Shown here piece by piece: positions 3,669 to 12,140 of a stretch of DNA of 64,000 nt. A model generated the notes under the pieces. It was not told the origin of the DNA and made no database searches. It worked only from the letters and a program-made list of their open reading frames with translations. Positions within the stretch are counted from its first letter, which is position 1, and every line of letters starts with the position of its first letter. Where the stretch lies: the NCBI GenBank assembly GCA_030697165.1, contig JAUYQQ010000013.1, forward strand, positions 62,001 through 126,000, written 5' to 3'. A program made the position numbers and the translations under genes. This DNA is from Acidobacteriota bacterium (GTDB lineage: Bacteria; Acidobacteriota; Vicinamibacteria; Vicinamibacterales; UBA2999).

Positions 3669-4958
3669 ATGAACAGCATCCGAATCATCATCGCGCTCGT
3701 GTTGTCGGCGCTCGTTCTGTTGCCGTCCACCGCTTCCCTGCAGTCACAGACCGACAAACCTGAAGGTTTGTCGCCACAAGCGGGTGGCGGGCTGGCCGCC
3801 GAGCGCATGGCCGTGATCGACAGCGGCCTGCAACGCTATGTCGACGACAACCGCGTCGCCGGCATCGTCGCGCTCGTGCTGCAGGACGGTAAGCCGGTGT
3901 ACGAGAAGGCGTTCGGCTGGGCCGACAAGGAAGCCGGCCGGCGGATGACGACCGACACGATCTTCCGCATCGCGTCGCAGACCAAGGCGCTGACGAGCGT
4001 CGCGATCATGCAGTTGATTGAGGAGGGCCGGCTGACGCCCGGGCGGCGGGCCGGCGACTTCATCCCGACCTTCGCCAGGACCACCGTGGCCACGGGCAAG
4101 ACAGGCGAGACGCTCGTGACTGAGCCGGCGCACCGGCCGATCACGATTCGCGATCTGCTCACTCACACCGCCGGCATCTCTTACGGCACCGATCCCCTCG
4201 TGGCGGACCTGTATCAGGCCAAGGGCCTGGGACCGGCCGCGGGCTTCGGCTGGTACACGGCCGACAAGGACGAGCCCGTGTGCGCCACCATGGAGCGGCT
4301 CGGCACGCTGCCGTTTGTCGCTCAGCCGGGCGAGCGGTGGGTGTACGGCTACAACACCGACATCCTCGGCTGCATCGTCGAGAAGGTGTCGGGGATGCCG
4401 CTCGACGAGTACCTGCGCACGCGCATCATCACGCCGCTCGGCATGAAGGACACGGCGTTCTTCGTGCCGGCCGCCGACCGCAGCCGGCTGGCGGCGGTCT
4501 ACGCGAGCCGCGACGGCGGCGTCGTGCGCGCGCCGGATGGGGCGCGCGGCCAGGGCCACTATGCCGACGGTCCGCGCAAGAACTTCGCCGGCGGCGCGGG
4601 CCTCGTCTCGACGGCGCGCGACTACGCGCGCTTCCTGGAGGCGATCCGCCTGGGCGGCACGGTCGACGGGGTTCGCGTGCTGTCGCCGCGCAGTGTTCGC
4701 CTGATGGCCACCAACCAGGTGGGCACGCTGCACTCGGCGAGCGGGCTCGGGTTTGGCCTGGGCTTCGGGACGACCGATCGGTTTGGCGCCAGTGGGATGC
4801 AGAGCGAAGGCTCGTTCGGCTGGGGCGGCGCGTATGGCTCCGTCTACAGGATCGATCCAGAGGAGAAGCTGGTGATGGTCCTGATGCTGCAGTTGATCCC
4901 GAACAGCAGCGACATCCGCGAGGCATTCCCCAACCTCGTGTATCAAGCCGTGCCATGA
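3669..4958 (+). CDS. Secreted serine hydrolase, class C beta-lactamase / EstB fold
   Basis: A 429-residue protein with an N-terminal export signal (hydrophobic residues ~5-20). The SxxK catalytic motif is S103-Q-T-K106 in RIASQTKAL. The second motif is the esterase-type variant Y226-G-Y-N-T-D-I-L-G, and the C-terminal box is WGGAYGS in place of KTG. This pattern fits EstB-like esterases or D-aminopeptidase relatives (Pfam Beta-lactamase, COG1680) better than true AmpC. The likely role is hydrolysis of esters or amides in the periplasm; the natural substrate is unknown. Confidence 0.85.
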   Translation: MNSIRIIIALVLSALVLLPSTASLQSQTDKPEGLSPQAGGGLAAERMAVIDSGLQRYVDDNRVAGIVALVLQDGKPVYEKAFGWADKEAGRRMTTDTIFRIASQTKALTSVAIMQLIEEGRLTPGRRAGDFIPTFARTTVATGKTGETLVTEPAHRPITIRDLLTHTAGISYGTDPLVADLYQAKGLGPAAGFGWYTADKDEPVCATMERLGTLPFVAQPGERWVYGYNTDILGCIVEKVSGMPLDEYLRTRIITPLGMKDTAFFVPAADRSRLAAVYASRDGGVVRAPDGARGQGHYADGPRKNFAGGAGLVSTARDYARFLEAIRLGGTVDGVRVLSPRSVRLMATNQVGTLHSASGLGFGLGFGTTDRFGASGMQSEGSFGWGGAYGSVYRIDPEEKLVMVLMLQLIPNSSDIREAFPNLVYQAVP

Positions 4959-4990
4959 GCGTGTTCGCCGATCAGCCGCTCACGCGCGCG

Positions 4991-5005
4991 TATAATCAAC
5001 CCTCG
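4991..5005 (+). promoter_or_regulatory. Promoter -10 box TATAAT directly before the ATG (near-leaderless)
   Basis: A consensus TATAAT (4991-4996) is followed after only 9 nt by the ATG at 5006. With a normal -10 to +1 distance the transcript would start 2-3 nt before the start codon, leaving no room for a Shine-Dalgarno site. Confidence 0.6.
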
Positions 5006-6175
5006 ATGTCTCGAGCCACGGCATTTCTCCTCGTATCCCTGCTGCTCGGTTCGCCGGCGTACGGACAAACGACCCGGGTCGAGACGATTGCCGATCAGCA
5101 GGCTGAGAAGGCCAAGAAGCTGGAACCCGAAGGGCCGTCCGACGGGGAGTTGATCGTGCGGCGGGTGCTGTTGTCGCCGCTGCTCAGCGGCGGTGGCGGC
5201 GCCTACCCCTGGTTTGGCAGCGTGTTCGGCGGCTCGGGCATGGCGGTCGGCGCCGGCTACCTCAAGCGCTTCGAGAAGTCCGGCTCGCTCAACTTCCTGG
5301 CCGGCATCTCCATCAACAATTCGCAGGTGCTCGAGACCCGGGTCGTCGCACCGGCGTTGTTTCGTGACCGGCTGCAAATCGGCGCCCAGGCGCGCTGGAC
5401 CGATGCGAAGGGAGTGTCGTACTACGGCGTGGGACCCACGACGGATCGCGAGGCCGACTTCGAGTACGACTACCAGCCGACCGAGTTCAGCACCGATGCG
5501 ACGTTCAAGCCGGTGCGGTGGCTGTCGTTTGGCGGCGGCTACTCGTACGTCGATCTCACGACCGCGGTTAAAGACTTCGACCTCGCGGCCCTGCCCGCGC
5601 CGGGAATCGGGCGTGACCTGCGCTACAACGTCATCCGCTCCGAGGTGGCGGTCGACACGCGCACCTCGCCTGGCTACAGCACGCGCGGCGGGCTCTACCG
5701 CGTCGCGTGGGAGCGGCACGAAGAGCGCCACGATCTCCCCTTCTCATTTGATGCGCACGAATACGAAGTGCGGCAGCTCGTGCCGCTGGTCCGCGAGCAG
5801 TTCGTGATCGCGATCCGCGGGTTGATGACGCTGACGAGCTCGGACCCCGGCAACGTGGTCCCGGTTCCGCTCGCGCCGTTCCTCGGCAGCGGCAGCACGC
5901 TGCGCGGCTTCCCGACCCGTCGCTTCACCGACCGCAATCGCGTGCTCGTGACCGGCGAGTACCGCTGGCGGCCCTCGCGGTACCTCGACATGGCGATCTT
6001 CGTGGACTCGGGGCAGGTGGCACCCGACCGGCACCAGTTCCGGCTCAGTGACTTCGAGACCAACTACGGCATCGGGGCGCGCTTTCACGGCCCGCTGTTC
6101 ACCGCGCTTCGGGTCGAATATGCGCGCGGGCGCGAAGGCCGGAGCATCATTTTCGCAGGGAGCCAGGTCTTCTAG
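5006..6175 (+). CDS. BamA/TamA (Omp85)-family outer-membrane barrel protein
   Basis: 389 residues. I chose the ATG at 5006 because it begins a clean signal peptide (cleaved after AYGQ) and follows the TATAAT box. Alternating hydrophobic beta-strands run through the whole mature part. The segment GSGSTLRGFPTRRF carries the xRGF loop motif of the Omp85 barrel, and the protein ends in phenylalanine as expected for a BAM substrate. There is too little sequence before the barrel for POTRA domains, so it belongs to the short surface-antigen D15-like group. It heads a cluster with two exported kinase-like proteins and a PAP2 phosphatase. Confidence 0.82.
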   Translation: MSRATAFLLVSLLLGSPAYGQTTRVETIADQQAEKAKKLEPEGPSDGELIVRRVLLSPLLSGGGGAYPWFGSVFGGSGMAVGAGYLKRFEKSGSLNFLAGISINNSQVLETRVVAPALFRDRLQIGAQARWTDAKGVSYYGVGPTTDREADFEYDYQPTEFSTDATFKPVRWLSFGGGYSYVDLTTAVKDFDLAALPAPGIGRDLRYNVIRSEVAVDTRTSPGYSTRGGLYRVAWERHEERHDLPFSFDAHEYEVRQLVPLVREQFVIAIRGLMTLTSSDPGNVVPVPLAPFLGSGSTLRGFPTRRFTDRNRVLVTGEYRWRPSRYLDMAIFVDSGQVAPDRHQFRLSDFETNYGIGARFHGPLFTALRVEYARGREGRSIIFAGSQVF

Positions 6176-6177
6176 CC

Positions 6178-7815
6178 ATGGTGACGCGTCGCCTCACACT
6201 ATCGTTACTGGCCGCGGTCGCCATCACCTGGACCGCGAGCGCCCAGTCGCGCCGGTTTTTTCCGGACGATCCGATCTGGCGCGAGCCGATCACGCAGGAC
6301 GTGAAGAACGCGAACCGCTACGAGCCTGACCTGGCTTACCAGACACTGGAGAACCTGTTCTGGCGTCCCGGCGACTCCGAGACCGGGCAGCGCGCGAAGA
6401 ACATCAACACCGTGGACGAGGTGCCCGACGGCCCGTTCTTCGTAAACCGCGCCGGGCGCGCGCCGCTGACACCGGCCATCGTGGCACGGGGCGCGAACAC
6501 CAGCGAGGGTCCCGCGGCTGGGCCGTGGACGGTGGTGTCGGCCAAGAGTGATGGCGTGACGCCCGGTTTCACCATTCGCGACGCCGCCGGCCAGGTGTGG
6601 TTCGTCAAGTTCGATCCGCCCGGCTGGCGCGCCATGGCGACGGGCAGCGAGATTGTCGCGGCCAAGCTGTTCTGGGCGGCCGGCTACCACACCGCCGAAT
6701 ACCACATTGCGCAACTGAAGCCGGCGAACCTGGTGATCGGCAAGGACACGAAGATCACGCCGCGGGGCGAGATGGCCCGGTCGATGCACCAGGGCGACAT
6801 CGCGTGGCTGCTGTCACGCGCCGATCGTGACCCCGACGGCACCTACCGGGTGATCCTCAGCAGGGCGACACCGGGCCGCCCGGTGGGACGCATTGCCTTT
6901 CACGGCACGCGAGCAGACGACCCGAACGACACCATCCCGCACGAGCATCGCCGCGAGTTGCGTGGCTACTTCGTGTTCGCGGCGTGGCTGAACCACGTCG
7001 ATGCGAAGGGCATCAATTCCCTCTCGTCGCTCGTCACCGAGAACGGGCGCAGCTTCATTCGCCATTACCTGCTCGACTTCGGCTCGGCGCTGGGCAGCGC
7101 CGCGGTCGGGCCGCGGGAAGGCTGGGAGGGCTACGAGGCCCTGGTTGAAGAACCCGGCGAAATCGGCCGGCGTGCGCTGTCGTTCGGCTTCCGGATTCCG
7201 CAGTGGCGCACGCAGGACTACTTTGAGTCGCCGGCGATCGGCCGGTTGCCCAGGGACCACGCGCAGTGGGATCCGCAAACCTGGTGGCCGCACATCACCA
7301 ACGCGGCGTTCAGGCACATGCGCGCGGACGATACGTTCTGGGCGGCGAGCAAGCTGGTGTCGATCACCGACGACATGATCACGGCCGCGGTCGCCGAAGC
7401 GAAGTTCGGCGATCCGGCATCCGAGGCCTTCCTCGCAAAGGCGATTGCCGACCGGCGGCTGCGCATCCTGCAGACGTTCCTGCCGAAGGTCAATCCCCTC
7501 GTGGACGTGGCGCTCGACGCCGGGGGCCGGCTGACCTTCCGCAACCTCGCGGTCGATGCCGCGGTGGCGGATCGCGTACCCGGCTATCGCGCCGTCTGGT
7601 ACACCTTCGACAACGCAACTGACACGGCGACGCTGGTGGCCAACACCGAAGAGACGCAGAGCCCGCTCCCCATGCCTGAAATGCCGGCCTCGGAGTTCAT
7701 CAAGGTGGACATTTCGGCGGTAGGCGGTCCGGAAGCGTGGACCCGCCCGATTTCGGTGTATTTCCGCAGGAATGGCGGGGCGTGGACCCTGGTCGGCCTC
7801 GAACGACTACCCTGA
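6178..7815 (+). CDS. Exported protein-kinase-like protein of unknown role
   Basis: A 545-residue protein with a signal peptide (cleavage after SAQ, ~23). I do not recognise a named family, but residues ~120-310 carry kinase-fold landmarks in the right order: beta3-like VWFVKF (K144), a helix with E158 (GSEIVAAKLF), a catalytic-loop-like H273-V-D275-A-K277-G-I-N280, and a metal-loop-like D300-F-G302. The spacing and the DFG followed by SALG resemble HipA, FAM20 and CotH-type atypical kinases. The ATG lies 2 nt after the Omp85 gene stop, suggesting one transcript. If active it would phosphorylate something in the periplasm or at the surface; activity is inferred, not shown. Confidence 0.6.
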   Translation: MVTRRLTLSLLAAVAITWTASAQSRRFFPDDPIWREPITQDVKNANRYEPDLAYQTLENLFWRPGDSETGQRAKNINTVDEVPDGPFFVNRAGRAPLTPAIVARGANTSEGPAAGPWTVVSAKSDGVTPGFTIRDAAGQVWFVKFDPPGWRAMATGSEIVAAKLFWAAGYHTAEYHIAQLKPANLVIGKDTKITPRGEMARSMHQGDIAWLLSRADRDPDGTYRVILSRATPGRPVGRIAFHGTRADDPNDTIPHEHRRELRGYFVFAAWLNHVDAKGINSLSSLVTENGRSFIRHYLLDFGSALGSAAVGPREGWEGYEALVEEPGEIGRRALSFGFRIPQWRTQDYFESPAIGRLPRDHAQWDPQTWWPHITNAAFRHMRADDTFWAASKLVSITDDMITAAVAEAKFGDPASEAFLAKAIADRRLRILQTFLPKVNPLVDVALDAGGRLTFRNLAVDAAVADRVPGYRAVWYTFDNATDTATLVANTEETQSPLPMPEMPASEFIKVDISAVGGPEAWTRPISVYFRRNGGAWTLVGLERLP

Positions 7816-7921
7816 CGGCGGTAACGGCCGATACTCTTTTGAGGGGTCAAAATCGTGTCGGACCATGGTTCCATGCGATACTGAAGCACCCGTTTCGACA
7901 ACTGAGACGAAAGTCTTCTTG

Positions 7922-8749
7922 ATGAATTTCTTGCGTCTTGCCGTGTGTTCCATCTTCTCCGTGGCTATCGCTGTGCCCGCGTTCGCGCAGGACGCGACGC
8001 CAGCCGAGAGTGCCCGCGTGGAATCGCCGGGCGCCGGGCAGTTGCCCCGCCCTGGCCAACCGCTGCCACCCGAGATGGTCTTGCCTCGCACCACCGAGCT
8101 GGAGTCGGGAAACTTCTTCAAGCTGGTCGGCAGCGACTTCAAGAACTTCTTCAGCAGCGATACCGCGCACGTGATGGCGTACACCTCGGTGGCCGCGATT
8201 GGCGCGGCCCCATGGGACCGCGAGGGCATCAACAACGGCTTCAACATTCCGACGACCGTCTTCCAGTCCGGCAACCTGATGGGGAGCTTCGCTTTCCAGG
8301 TCGGCATCGGCGCGGCAGGCTACGCCGTCGGTCGCGTCTCCGGGAAGGGCAAGCTGGCCAGGGTGGGCCGCGATGTGGTCCGCGCGCAGATCCTCTCGCA
8401 GGGCATCGCCCAGGTCACGAAGTTCTCGGTCGGCCGCAAGCGGCCGGACGGCAGCAACAGCCAGTCCTTCCCGTCAGGACACGCCGCCAGCGCCTTCGCC
8501 ACCGCCTCAGTTCTGCACCGTCACTACGGCTGGAAGGCCGGCGTGCCGGCCTTTGCGTTCGGATCGTACGTAGCGCTGGCGAGGATGTCCTGGAACAAGC
8601 ACCACGCCACTGATGTCGTGATGGGCGCCGGTCTCGGCATCGCCTCGGCTCGCACCGTGACCATGAGCGTCGCCGGCACCAGGTTCAACATGGGCGTGCA
8701 GCCGCAAGTGGGCGGCGCGTCCATCAACTTCACCAAAATCAATAAGTAG
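7922..8749 (+). CDS. Exported PAP2-family phosphatase
   Basis: 275 residues. The ATG at 7922 is preferred over upstream in-frame codons because it starts a signal peptide cleaved after AFAQ (~23). All three PAP2 signatures are present: K167-x6-R174-P175 (KFSVGRKRP), P184-S-G-H187, and R221-x5-H227-x3-D231. These form the histidine-phosphate active site that removes phosphate from lipid phosphates or small phosphomonoesters. An N-terminal Pro-rich stretch of ~45 residues separates the signal from the domain. It lies between two exported kinase-like genes, so opposing phosphotransfer reactions in the same compartment are conceivable. Confidence 0.87.
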   Translation: MNFLRLAVCSIFSVAIAVPAFAQDATPAESARVESPGAGQLPRPGQPLPPEMVLPRTTELESGNFFKLVGSDFKNFFSSDTAHVMAYTSVAAIGAAPWDREGINNGFNIPTTVFQSGNLMGSFAFQVGIGAAGYAVGRVSGKGKLARVGRDVVRAQILSQGIAQVTKFSVGRKRPDGSNSQSFPSGHAASAFATASVLHRHYGWKAGVPAFAFGSYVALARMSWNKHHATDVVMGAGLGIASARTVTMSVAGTRFNMGVQPQVGGASINFTKINK

Positions 8750-8756
8750 CCCCCCC

Positions 8757-9614
8757 ATGAGCAGGACCGACGCGCGCGTCGTGCTCCTCCTCGTGGTCGC
8801 GATACTGGTCTGCGGTCCGGCGTTCGCGCAACCCGCGGCCGCGCCGGCCGCCACTCCGGTCGCCACGCCGGCCCTCTCGGTTGCCGAGATCCGGCAGTTC
8901 CTGCTCACCGCGAAGATCACGCGCTCGCGCGACATCGGCAAGGGCGTCACCAGCCCCAAGCGCCTGACCCTGACCAACGGCACGATCACGCACGACGCCG
9001 CCTTCCAGGCGGTGGACGAGCGGCAGAGCATGGCCAACCTGTCGGGTGGCGGGCGGCGGCCCACCGTCGAGATGAACTTCGTCGACTCCTACCGCTACAA
9101 CCTCGGCGCCTATGGATTGTCGCAGTTGCTGGGCCTCGAGGCGATGATGCCCGTGCACGTGGAGCGTCGCTGGAATGGCAAGATTGGCTCGCTCAGCTGG
9201 TGGGTCGACACCCTGATGGAAGAAGGCGAGCGCCTGAAGAAGAAGATCCAGCCGCCCAACGCCACCGACTGGAATCACCAGATGTATCGGATGCGGGTGT
9301 TCGCGGCGCTCACCCGCGACACCGATCGCAATCTCGGCAACGTGCTCATCACGCACCAGTGGAAGGTGATGATGATCGACTTTACCCGCGCGTTCCGACT
9401 GCAGACCGACTTGCGCTACCCGGAGGACCTGACCAAGATCGATCGGACGCTGCTGCCCCGCCTGGAGGCGCTCACGAAAGACGGCATCAAGCAGGCCGTG
9501 GATGATCAGCTCACCGGGCCCGAGATCGACGCCGTCCTCAAGCGGCGCGACGCCATCGTCGGCCACTTCAGGAAGCTGATCGCCGACCTCGGCGAAAGCG
9601 CCGTTCTGTATTAG
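8757..9614 (+). CDS. Second exported kinase-like protein
   Basis: 285 residues with a signal peptide (cleaved after AFAQ, ~25) and an Ala/Pro-rich linker. The C-terminal half holds D188-T-D190-R-N192-x2-N195-VLIT followed by MMIDF (D208), the arrangement of catalytic and metal-binding loops in FAM20/HipA/PI3K-like atypical kinases. The place where a beta3 lysine would be expected reads HDAAFQAVDE, with glutamine at residue 84, so either the nucleotide lysine is elsewhere or the enzyme is degenerate. It starts 7 nt after the PAP2 stop and is probably cotranscribed with it. It is not a close copy of the kinase-like gene at 6178. Confidence 0.58.
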   Translation: MSRTDARVVLLLVVAILVCGPAFAQPAAAPAATPVATPALSVAEIRQFLLTAKITRSRDIGKGVTSPKRLTLTNGTITHDAAFQAVDERQSMANLSGGGRRPTVEMNFVDSYRYNLGAYGLSQLLGLEAMMPVHVERRWNGKIGSLSWWVDTLMEEGERLKKKIQPPNATDWNHQMYRMRVFAALTRDTDRNLGNVLITHQWKVMMIDFTRAFRLQTDLRYPEDLTKIDRTLLPRLEALTKDGIKQAVDDQLTGPEIDAVLKRRDAIVGHFRKLIADLGESAVLY

Positions 9615-9620
9615 GCCAAC

Positions 9621-9669
9621 GGGCAGGCTAAAGCCGGCCCCTACGTAGGGGCGCGCTTTAGTGCGCCCG
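9621..9669. repeat. REP-like inverted repeat between convergent genes
   Basis: The 57-bp gap between converging genes is almost filled by inverted repeats: a CTAAAG-containing arm, a perfect 14-bp palindrome CCCCTACGTAGGGG and a GCGCGCTTTAGTGCGCCC arm. The CTAAAG/CTTTAG cores match those of the other REP families here. It may also act as a bidirectional transcription stop. Confidence 0.55.
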
Positions 9670-9671
9670 CG

Positions 9672-12140
9672 TCATTTCACGGTCGTTGGCGGACGACGGT
9701 GGCGGGTGGCGCGCTCGTAGGCGGCCGCCAATTCCAACAGTCGCTGGTCATCCCACATGCGTCCCAGCAGCGAGATGCCGGCGGGATAGCGACCGCCGAT
9801 GAAACCGGCCGGCACGGTCACCTGCGGCAGGCCCGTGGCCGCGCTTTCTTCGCAGGTTCCCGGCTCTGACCCGTAGCGCTCGAGTCCACCCTCGTGGGTG
9901 TGAGGCCGCGCGTGGTTTGCCGGGAACAGCAGCGCGTCGAGCTGCTGCTGATCCATCAGGTCCACGAAGATCTGCCGGAAGGTTTCGCGGCCGGCGACGA
10001 AGCGGCGCGTCGCCTCGTCGCGCGATGCGCCCGTCGCTACCGGTGCCAGCGCCCCTTCGAAGCGGCGCGCGCTGACCGGCGCGAGCTTTCCCGATGCCAG
10101 CAGGTCCTGGATCGTCAGCACCTTGTCGCCCGGCTTCGCGCCTCGGGAGAGATAGGCCGTCCACCCGTCGCGCAGCGAGCCTGGCGCCGCCCCGCGAGCA
10201 GCCGCGTACTTCGCGTCGTAGTCGGCAACCGAGACGTCGACCACGATCGCGCCGGCGGCCTGCAGTTCCTTGATCACGCGATCCATGTTCGCGGCCACCT
10301 CGCGCTCGCCGGTGAAGCCTACAAAGCGCTGCCGAAGCGCGCCAATGCGCTTGCCCTTGAGTGAGGCGGTGTCCAGGCCCTGCGCGAACGAGCCGGCGAT
10401 GCGCCTCGCGGCGCCGGCCGTGACCGGGTCCTCTGGGTCGGGGCCTGTCACCAGGTCGAGCGCCAGGGCCACATCGCGAACCGATTTCGCCATGGGTCCA
10501 ATCGCATCGTTATAGGTATTGAGCGGCATGACGCCGGCGCGGCTGGTCAACCCGCGTGTGGTGCGAATGGTCGCGAGGGCCGCGAACGAGGCGGGATTCG
10601 ACAGCGAGTTGCAGGTGTCGGTGCCAAACGACAGCGCGGCCAGGCTGGCGGCCACGGCGGTCGCGCTGCCGCCGCTCGAGCCCGCCGTGCTGAGCGACGC
10701 ATCGTACGCGTTGCCCACGGTGCCGCCGACGGTGCTGATGCCGAAATCACCGAACGGAAACTCATCGAGGTTGGCCTTGCCGAGCAGCACGGCGCCGCCC
10801 TGTTTCATGCCGGCGGCGACGCGCGAGTCGAGACGCGGCCGGTGATCGACCAGCGCGAGCGAACCGCCCGTGGTGGGCAGCTCCGTCGCATCGATGTTGT
10901 CCTTGTAGACGATCGGCACGCCGTGAAACGGGCTGCGCACGCGGCCGCTGGCCCGCTCGGCGTCGCGCGCGCGGGCGTCGGCCACCGCCCGCGGGTTGAT
11001 CGACAACACCGAACGGAACGTGGGGCCCTGCCGATCGTAGCGGGACAACCGCGCCAGGTATTCGCGCGTGATGTCTTCGGAGGTGGTCAGGCCGCGGGTC
11101 ATGGCGTCCTGCAGCTCGCTTACCGTCTTCTCGAACACGGTGAACGGCGCCGGCGCGGCGCCGGCCGGCGGCCAGTTGGCCACCTGCGATCGCTGGAGCG
11201 CCGTCAGGCCGCCAAAGTCGGGCGCTGACGTGAGCTGCCTGGCGATGGCGGTCACGCGCGCAATCTCGGAGCCGGCGGGCGGCACTTTCGCATCCGGCCC
11301 GGCATAGACCGCCTCACCGGTGACCAGTGCGTCCTTGAACGGGAGGGGATAACCGCCACGCGGGTCGTAGACCTCGGACAGGCCTTTCACCACGAACGTC
11401 ACGAGCGCGGCGGTTTCGCCCGGCTGCAATCGCAGCGTGAAGACGTAGCCAACGTGCGCCGTATCGAGTCCGGGCCAGGCCGCGCCAAAGGGATCGCCGT
11501 ACATGTCGCCAATCGACGTCAAGACGCCCCGGCGCGTGCCCAACACGTGCGCCGAAGGTCCATGGCCCGAGGGCCCATCGGCCGGAACGGCCGCGCGGGT
11601 CGCGTTCTGCATCATCGTGACGAAGCTGTCGGCGGTGTCGATCTGCTGGTCGCCGGTCGAGGTGACGGCGACCGTCGCCCGGCCGCCGTCTTCGCCCGCA
11701 CCGACCGCGCCGCCCCAGGCCACGCGAACCGTTCGGTCCTCGGCCGCGGTGTTGGTGAAGCTGTCGAAATAGCGCAGGTAGGCCGTGTCCCTCGTCGTCT
11801 TGATGGCGCGCGCGATCAGGATGCCTTCGTGCAACACCGGAGTCGTCGAGTCGAAACGGCCGGCGGCGTCGTGGTGCAAACCAAACCCGCGCAGGTAGTG
11901 GTTGCTGGCAAGCAGCGTGTTGTCGGCTCGCCGCACCTGGAGTTTGAGGTAGCCGAAACCATTGAACGGGTTGGCGCGCCCGCCAGTGGCAATGCCGCCG
12001 CTGTCCTGCGACCAGGGCGAGGTGTCCTGGATGTCCCAGAACTGGCCGTCGCCCGACGGCACGCGGGTAATCGCCCCAACGCTCATCACACAAATCGCGG
12101 CACCGGTCACAGCCAGCGCCAAGGCTTTCAGGGTTCGCAT
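9672..12140 (-). CDS. Exported amidase-signature hydrolase with an extra N-terminal beta domain
   Basis: 822 residues with an N-terminal export signal. Residues ~340-815 are an amidase-signature domain: catalytic lysine K413 in VYKDNID, the cis-serine segment AGSSGGSA (~486-493) and the nucleophile region GTDTCNSLSNPAS (S512). Most family members read GTDTGGS(I/V)R at the last site; here Cys-Asn replaces Gly-Gly and Ser replaces the usual Arg, so specificity is probably shifted. The first ~300 residues form an unrecognised beta-rich region absent from ordinary amidases, with the segment FDSFTNTAAEDRTVRVAWGG. Likely function is hydrolysis of amides outside the cytoplasm. It is transcribed divergently from the amidohydrolase at 12163. 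Confidence 0.83.
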   Translation of the reverse strand: MRTLKALALAVTGAAICVMSVGAITRVPSGDGQFWDIQDTSPWSQDSGGIATGGRANPFNGFGYLKLQVRRADNTLLASNHYLRGFGLHHDAAGRFDSTTPVLHEGILIARAIKTTRDTAYLRYFDSFTNTAAEDRTVRVAWGGAVGAGEDGGRATVAVTSTGDQQIDTADSFVTMMQNATRAAVPADGPSGHGPSAHVLGTRRGVLTSIGDMYGDPFGAAWPGLDTAHVGYVFTLRLQPGETAALVTFVVKGLSEVYDPRGGYPLPFKDALVTGEAVYAGPDAKVPPAGSEIARVTAIARQLTSAPDFGGLTALQRSQVANWPPAGAAPAPFTVFEKTVSELQDAMTRGLTTSEDITREYLARLSRYDRQGPTFRSVLSINPRAVADARARDAERASGRVRSPFHGVPIVYKDNIDATELPTTGGSLALVDHRPRLDSRVAAGMKQGGAVLLGKANLDEFPFGDFGISTVGGTVGNAYDASLSTAGSSGGSATAVAASLAALSFGTDTCNSLSNPASFAALATIRTTRGLTSRAGVMPLNTYNDAIGPMAKSVRDVALALDLVTGPDPEDPVTAGAARRIAGSFAQGLDTASLKGKRIGALRQRFVGFTGEREVAANMDRVIKELQAAGAIVVDVSVADYDAKYAAARGAAPGSLRDGWTAYLSRGAKPGDKVLTIQDLLASGKLAPVSARRFEGALAPVATGASRDEATRRFVAGRETFRQIFVDLMDQQQLDALLFPANHARPHTHEGGLERYGSEPGTCEESAATGLPQVTVPAGFIGGRYPAGISLLGRMWDDQRLLELAAAYERATRHRRPPTTVK

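Follow-up and report, generated by a model that had tools for sequence, protein, structure and literature searches.

Does a run of four genes in an acidobacterial genome, in which an outer-membrane barrel precedes two exported kinase-like proteins with a phosphatase between them, constitute a device for phosphorylation outside the cytoplasm? The question arises from positions 5,006 to 9,614 of a 64,000-nucleotide stretch of Acidobacteriota DNA (assembly GCA_030697165.1, contig JAUYQQ010000013.1, positions 62,001 to 126,000, hereafter the window), where an initial annotation made from the letters alone had proposed such a cluster. All four open reading frames were confirmed at the places then given, all on the + strand: a barrel (5006..6175; 389 amino acids, aa), protein A (6178..7815; 545 aa), a PAP2 phosphatase (7922..8749; 275 aa), and protein B (8757..9614; 285 aa), with signal-peptide-like N-termini on A and B as had been claimed. 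Because the four genes share a strand and are separated by gaps of 2, 106, and 7 bases, a single transcript is plausible; a simple scan of 4850-9720 detected no sigma-70-like promoter, where 0.5 were expected. The unit that recurs in the Acidobacteriota is, however, the barrel plus A, with PAP2 and B being optional additions to it; and the explanation that we consider the best overall, at roughly an even chance, is that the barrel and A form a unit for phosphorylation at the envelope or surface, to which PAP2 and B were added.

The recurrence of the gene pair was assessed in 80 named loci, which represent the best 80 of 293 relatives and of which 78 are titled Acidobacteria/Acidobacteriota or as groups, such as Bryobacterales and Luteitalea, that we took to lie within that phylum. 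The upstream genes were counted in 75 of these, the five with fewer than 600 bases upstream being left out; a partial barrel is still visible in three of the latter (L123, L126, and L127). In 70 of the 75 loci A is immediately preceded by the barrel, whose end falls between -28 and +166 bases from the estimated start of A; in the remaining five the barrel is on the same strand and farther upstream, by some 215-1585 bases, with another A intervening in L130. In the reciprocal direction, a search of 199 genomes gave 47 barrel matches with E no higher than 2e-14. Of these, 44 adjoin a same-strand A-family gene (fragmentary in G041), two a short A-like gene (G167:C13 and contig C22 of the window's own genome), and one (G159) neither. 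A barrel is present, in turn, for 42 of 46 A matches, and of the other four—two in G069 and one each in G172 and G164—two begin no more than 260 bases from where the contig ends. The claim of a four-gene cluster thus stands for its first half, since barrel and A recur almost throughout, but not for the whole: the order barrel-A-PAP2-B was found in the window and only in L065, L067, and L068 of the 80 loci, so that phylum-wide conservation of the four genes as a module is rejected. B can also join as barrel-A-B (L086) or B-barrel-A (L130 and L141), and the 6.8-kb contig of the close relative L066 has barrel-A-PAP2 and no B.

Some particulars of these loci deserve mention in their own right. The A genes on the contigs of L066, titled Alphaproteobacteria, and of L068, titled Cyanobacteria, each share 79% identity with that of the window; the latter title looks mislabelled, and the genome G167 is of the window's genus. 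Duplicated units were seen in L143, L130, L078, and L144, in the form of barrel-A-barrel-A (L143), barrel-A-A, divergent barrel/A pairs, or tandem barrels. Searches of plasmids with A and B found nothing.

The first gene of the pair is assigned to the Omp85-superfamily outer-membrane barrels, and its product begins with a signal-peptide-like N-terminus. The window barrel matches NCBIfam Omp85_fam over aa 208-387 (7.3e-19; 68.5 bits, the model cut-off being 200) and has no Pfam match of its own; in an alignment of that barrel with 32 of its 69 length-filtered relatives (33 rows, the lengths of the others being preset by the filter), Omp85_fam was matched at E up to 0.1 by all 33 and the Pfam Omp85 family, PF01103, by 28 (best 2.1e-18). 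The family profile retrieved from the PDB the chains of a POTRA-domain protein, BamA, and TamA (best 1.2e-9). The sequence LRGF at aa 299-302 (5900..5911), which we take to be the loop-6 motif of Omp85 proteins, has an R300 that is invariant in the 33 rows; and the window barrel, with 389 aa in all, has no room for two POTRA domains. The identity proposed for the third gene was likewise upheld: its product, whose N-terminus resembles a signal peptide by eye, scores 42.8 bits against PF01569 (5.4e-11; cut-off 27.2), and matches NCBIfam LpxE (9.4e-4) and SepP (0.017) weakly, both far below their cut-offs.

Protein A, for its part, is predicted to contain a kinase core of the HipA type. Its AlphaFold model, built on a 28-sequence alignment with a predicted local distance difference test (pLDDT) score of 89.5, aligned in VIA-align to CtkA with Z 13.9-14.8 (at best, a root-mean-square deviation, rmsd, of 4.2 over 233 residues), to DrFam20C1 with Z 13.6, to PI4K-II with 13.5, and to HipA with 11.0. 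The alignment to CtkA delimits a putative core at about aa 110-437 (6505..7488). Before it comes a putative signal peptide of about aa 1-23 (6178..6246), suggested by the sequence, by a helix at 2-19 in the model, and by hydropathy; after it comes a C-terminal, Fn3-like beta-sandwich of about aa 438-545 (7489..7812), the sandwich proper occupying 438-531, whose similarity to chain 6d0n_C is borderline (Z 8.1; 83 residues; rmsd 2.5) and to monobody chains lower (Z 7.1-7.5). At E up to 1 nothing in Pfam matches the window copy, HipA_C and HipA_2 included; in 28 family members HipA_2 is matched weakly by nine (best 9e-4) and HipA_C by one (8.3e-5), these two being the family's only Pfam matches to protein-kinase-like families.

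The residues of A were scored in 104 sequences (75 from the named loci and 29 from further genomes) that remained from 123 matches after length and duplicate filters; one row, lacking positions 144 and 158, was left unscored, so that 103 count for that pair. The candidates for catalysis are K144 (6607..6609) as the ATP-binding Lys, E158 (6649..6651) as its partner, D275 (7000..7002; 97/104) as the catalytic Asp, N280 (7015..7017; 101/104) as the metal-binding Asn, and D300 (7075..7077; 103/104) as the DFG-type metal Asp. Position 144 is K in 78 of the 104, with E or D at 158 in all 78, and the five positions are jointly intact in 74; window A retains both members of the Lys-Glu pair. The family also conserves an N-terminal FxxDDP region and a signature R245-x-D-D-x-N-D-x3-H-E-x-R-R-x2-R262 (6910..6963), of which R245, D247, D248, N250, D251, R259, and R262 are invariant (104/104).

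Two variants of A were observed. The proteins of L205 (G104), L206 (G156), L207 (G068), L209-L210 (G090), and L211 (G164) bear a C-terminal extension of about 400-600 aa with the shared motifs YHxGYP, ADIDVDY, and NSDVRAGDN; the copies of G104, G156, and G068 are without K144, and the full protein of L206 matched no Pfam family at E up to 0.1. The other variant is a separate subfamily of shorter A-like proteins, nine of them in eight loci, including L213:3929-4960 (-), L214:3014-4054 (+), and L216-L221. By eye, K, E, D, N, and D are all kept in the nine, and several have N-termini of signal, anchor, or possible lipobox type; in two of the eight loci, one of which belongs to the window's own genome, their genes come after an Omp85 barrel from the barrel subfamily described here.

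With protein B the predicted structure points to a kinase fold of the Fam20 type. The model (pLDDT 90.2, on a 30-sequence alignment) retrieved Fam20 proteins first in Foldseek (8.9e-9) and aligned to them in VIA-align with Z 18.4-20.3 over some 230 residues, the best being hydra Fam20 (Z 20.3; rmsd 3.7; 235 aligned), with PI4K-II (17.9), CtkA (15.7), HipA (12.2), and CotH (11.1) all behind. The family profile concurs, with Fam20A at 1.1e-11, Fam20C at 4.7e-8, and hydra Fam20 at 8.7e-6 among PDB sequences; hemagglutinin chains in the same search (E 0.048 or worse) were taken as chance. The profile libraries are less specific: 30 B members gave weak Pfam matches to PI3_PI4_kinase (26), HipA_2 (21), Fam20C (13; best 0.0015), and FAM198 (3), and PF06702 (Fam20C) was not among the matches of window B at E up to 1. 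The best-scoring library family was that of SCO1664 (TIGR03843), matched by all 30 at E up to 0.1 (best 3.1e-17), to which window B scores 22.4 bits, far under the cut-off of 172.4; the NCBIfam Kdo kinase was matched by 21 of 30 (best 5.2e-6), in window B over aa 187-232 only. As a genome-wide detector Pfam Fam20C was discarded, for it found 0 of 119 genomes and the controls were equally silent.

The active-site positions of B were read in 103 sequences, filtered for length and duplicates from 121 matches, the roles of their Fam20 counterparts being those described in the accessible parts of PMC4421793 and PMC5865150. A putative signal peptide of about aa 1-25 (8757..8831), suggested by the sequence, a helix at 3-17 in the model, and hydropathy, precedes them. 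HMMER alignments place Q84 (9006..9008) at K285 of Fam20C, the beta-3 Lys, and N115 (9099..9101) at E311, the partner of that Lys; D110 (9084..9086; D or E in 101/103) falls at D152 of hydra Fam20, that is, the E306 position of Fam20C, which mapping rests on the hydra protein, the alignments of Fam20A and Fam20C having a gap nearby. The candidate catalytic Asp is D190 (9324..9326; 95/103), corresponding to D458, and the candidate metal Asp D208 (9378..9380; 103/103), corresponding to D478. R69 falls near the beta-2 Lys that PMC5413348 gives as K271, the residue being R in 51 sequences and K in 33 (together 84/103). K/R84 occurs together with E/D115 in 82 of the 103 and neither occurs in 21, with no mixed row; all 21 retain D110, D190, N195, and D208. 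Window B has no cysteine after the signal peptide, and the family a single column past residue 40 with Cys in 40/103, no other exceeding 10.

B-family genes were found in 37 of the 199 genomes of the phylum, and cluster in 2-4 copies within a few kb in L176 (G178:C19), L191 (G072:C5), L195 (G162:C11), and L197 (G193:C34). In a clade of six such proteins (L176:8974-9819, L190:425-1267, L191:7371-9236, L195:5175-5999, L200:2873-4738, and L203:2738-4729) a Cys replaces D190, with K84, E115, and D208 kept.

The likeness to atypical kinases that had been read from both sequences is therefore borne out by the predicted models, neither of which has an unrelated fold; and the residues singled out at that time—K144, E158, D275, N280, and D300 in A; D190, N195, and D208 in B—are where they were said to be and are mostly kept, rather than lost, over the 104 A and 103 B homologues. 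Of the suggested relatives, HipA (with CtkA) suits A and Fam20 suits B, whereas the idea that B stands closest to CotH is rejected on its Z of 11.1 against 20.3; CotH was also absent from the Pfam matches, listed at E up to 1, of the 28 A and the 30 B members scanned. Export, too, withstood scrutiny: a hydrophobic, uncharged stretch within the 60 residues before the domain occurs in 93 of 95 scorable A and in 88 of 99 scorable B, with control segments of the same proteins at 2.0 and 5.7, the test being one of crude hydropathy and not SignalP; by eye, the N-termini of window A and B resemble ordinary Sec signals. That both are exported kinase-fold proteins is thus well supported and very probable.

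From these elements we propose the following explanation, for which the computed support lies in the predicted folds, the export-type N-termini, the conserved residues, the joint loss of the Lys-Glu pair, and the linkage of barrel and A. The core would be a two-gene unit composed of the short Omp85 barrel and an exported kinase-fold enzyme of the HipA/CtkA/Fam20 type, A, which protein would leave the cytoplasm by the Sec route, act in concert with the barrel at the outer membrane or outside it, and transfer phosphate to an envelope or surface substrate. That A is catalytic seems to us somewhat more probable than the contrary; that the barrel is its anchor or translocator might go either way. 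In the window's genus the unit would have gained the PAP2 phosphatase, which could reverse the reaction of A, as well as the Fam20-like B, which, with its Lys and Glu lost, may regulate A as Fam20A does Fam20C, Fam20A being described as a regulatory pseudokinase in PMC4421793. By that analogy a regulatory B falls a little short of an even chance, and PAP2 as the opposing enzyme is a yet more tentative assignment. As to the relation between A and B, the Lys-acid pair is intact in exactly one of the two in 7/7 linked loci, which represent about three lineages only; and an A match occurs in 13 of 14 genomes with any Lys-less B versus 8 of 22 with only K/R-type B (Fisher 0.0013, with kinship ignored, the Lys-less type mostly one clade, and A fragmentary in G191 and G041). 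The latter comparison covers the B genomes except G092, which has no row, and counts as without A the genomes G025 and G179, in which the match is of the short A-like type only.

A number of points weigh against this explanation, the main one being that we know of no established pool of ATP outside the cytoplasm; animal Fam20C, for its part, operates within the secretory pathway (PMC4421793). With respect to A, Foldseek gave no match to the model under E 0.001 (best 1.2e-3), and the sole PDB-sequence match of the family profile was pyruvate carboxylase (E 0.36), which we took as chance. K144 is missing from 25 of the 103 scored rows, 17 of which also lack the acid at 158 and eight of which keep it; the tree has seven changes at 144 and three at 158, and a sign test over independent pairs was not significant (p 0.25). 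With respect to B, the initial annotation had counted two kinases and had missed that position 84, at the ATP-binding Lys, is Gln: window B, being Q84/N115, is without that Lys and without its Glu partner, and because both are lost it may be a pseudokinase, so that the window could hold one kinase and one pseudokinase. It sits in a single clade of 18 (SH-aLRT support, from the approximate likelihood-ratio test, of 99) that lost both residues; the B tree has four changes at each of sites 84 and 115, again not significant (sign test, p 0.5), and the joint losses in A and B amount to only a few independent events. The profiles of A and B compare weakly (probability 3%, E 0.015), with D275/N280/D300 aligned to D190/N195/D208. 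In G054 and G125, furthermore, an A without K coexists with Lys-less B genes elsewhere in the genome, which contradicts a strict rule of complementarity between A and B and leaves it as a hint. Finally, PAP2 follows A in only 11 of the 75 loci and B is present in only six.

Other explanations have to be set beside it. The most ambitious would see in these loci what the secretory-pathway kinome is to animals: dedicated barrels, each paired with an exported kinase that would phosphorylate targets in the envelope or at the surface, and, as optional regulators, a phosphatase and a pseudokinase resembling Fam20A. We offer this extension as a speculation, on the unlikely side.

The barrel might, alternatively, deliver A to the surface in a manner resembling two-partner secretion, A then being a secreted effector on other cells or extracellular polymers, where a local supply of ATP would be met outside. 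The rule of one barrel per kinase gene, with the barrel first, is in keeping with that idea, as are the tandem units of L143 and the Fn3-like C-terminal domain of A; but the barrel protein leaves no space for the pair of POTRA domains that TpsB has (PMC9355242), and the short A-like subfamily seems, by eye, to include anchored or lipoprotein forms. We thus consider such delivery unlikely. No better placed, in our judgment, is the proposal that A and B are pseudoenzymes binding nucleotides or other ligands and serving as envelope scaffolds or barrel assembly factors. As far as we are aware, no ATP is to be expected outside the cytoplasm, and the proteins persist although both Lys and acid are gone from 21 of the 103 B sequences and from 17 of the 103 A sequences scored, both of which circumstances suit a non-catalytic role; all five catalytic-type positions are nonetheless retained in 74 of 104 A and in the nine short homologues, which positions scaffolds need not keep.

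Less probable still is that A and/or B phosphorylate a lipid carrier, a lipopolysaccharide sugar, or a polysaccharide, PAP2 then being the balancing lipid phosphatase. Fam20B is a glycan kinase (PMC5865150), and for four families in Legionella that cluster near FAM20 and CotH, PMC9758233 suggests phosphatidylinositol or other lipids as substrates. PAP2 adjoins A in 11 of 75 loci and matches LpxE and SepP weakly, PI4K-II is among the structural matches of B (Z 17.9), and 21 of 30 B members match the Kdo kinase; yet 64 of the 75 loci have no PAP2 immediately downstream, and the Kdo-kinase match of window B is limited to aa 187-232. Some other chemistry on the kinase fold, such as AMPylation or glutamylation, has precedents in atypical kinase folds—we take SelO and, as the polyglutamylating bacterial pseudokinase, SidJ to be such—and SidJ is among the Foldseek matches of A, but the residues of most A members are the ordinary kinase set and we consider this very improbable.

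Phosphorylation by a barrel-A unit accordingly remains the explanation that we prefer, and it would carry several consequences. If A or B were active, extracytoplasmic phosphorylation by a kinase of the Fam20/HipA type would become open to test in bacteria, with the source of nucleotide as the ensuing question; and were the counterpart of the secretory kinome real, Fam20-type extracellular phosphorylation would have bacterial relatives and a usable nucleotide would exist outside the cytoplasm. The close pairing with a kinase-fold protein suggests, moreover, a job for the class of short Omp85 barrels, and the B family, which 37 of the 199 genomes carry and whose profile resembles Fam20, is relevant to how kinases of this type arose. 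The folds of A and B are of known kinds; in the open-licence PMC literature we found no description of the barrel-A pair or of a barrel-linked exported Fam20-related family in bacteria.

Regarding the surroundings, the cluster in the window ends at a convergent gene for an amidase (9672-12140, -), which also comes after B in L065, L067, and L068. A protein of the beta-lactamase family (PF00144, 2.7e-74) is encoded at 3669-4958 (+), 47 bases upstream of the barrel; such a gene lies more than 2 kb upstream in L067 and was not found within the L068 locus, and the upstream sequence of L065 and L066 is too short to tell.

When compared with known systems, the window barrel resembles the Omp85 proteins without N-terminal extension, for which Heinz and Lithgow (2014; PMC4104836) use the term noNterm and offer only guesses as to function; the present subfamily differs in standing nearly always beside a kinase-fold gene. 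With two-partner secretion (TpsB/TpsA) the pair shares a dedicated Omp85 gene adjoining that of an exported partner, but a TpsB barrel is preceded by two POTRA domains (PMC9355242, in part), for which there is no room here, and the partner is a compact enzyme fold. A has the kinase core (Z 14.8 with CtkA of Helicobacter pylori, 11.0 with HipA) and the K..E..D..N..D layout of CtkA and HipA, and is unlike them in its signal-peptide-like N-terminus, FxxDDP region, invariant RxDDxND...RR signature, Fn3-like C-terminal domain, and Omp85 partner. For B, the CotH spore-coat kinases share the kinase fold, clearly more weakly than Fam20 (Z 11.1) and with no CotH Pfam match listed; and the SCO1664 family, though the best in the libraries, is one from whose cut-off the window copy stays far away. 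The Legionella survey, in its accessible text, lists FAM20 in eukaryotic- or Metazoa-specific clusters, and the four families that it places near FAM20/CotH, likened to B here by description only, are bacterial kinase folds too, with no barrel partner mentioned in that text (PMC9758233). To Fam20A/B/C themselves B is alike in its predicted fold, its profile, the acid at the E306/D152 position, the catalytic and metal Asp, and the signal-peptide-like N-terminus; it is unlike them in being bacterial, in its 285 aa, in having no conserved cysteine pattern, in a residue near the beta-2 Lys that is more often R than K, and, in the window copy, in lying under the PF06702 cut-off and lacking the beta-3 Lys and Glu. 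The pairing of a kinase with a pseudokinase among the Fam20 proteins nevertheless parallels that which A and B may form.

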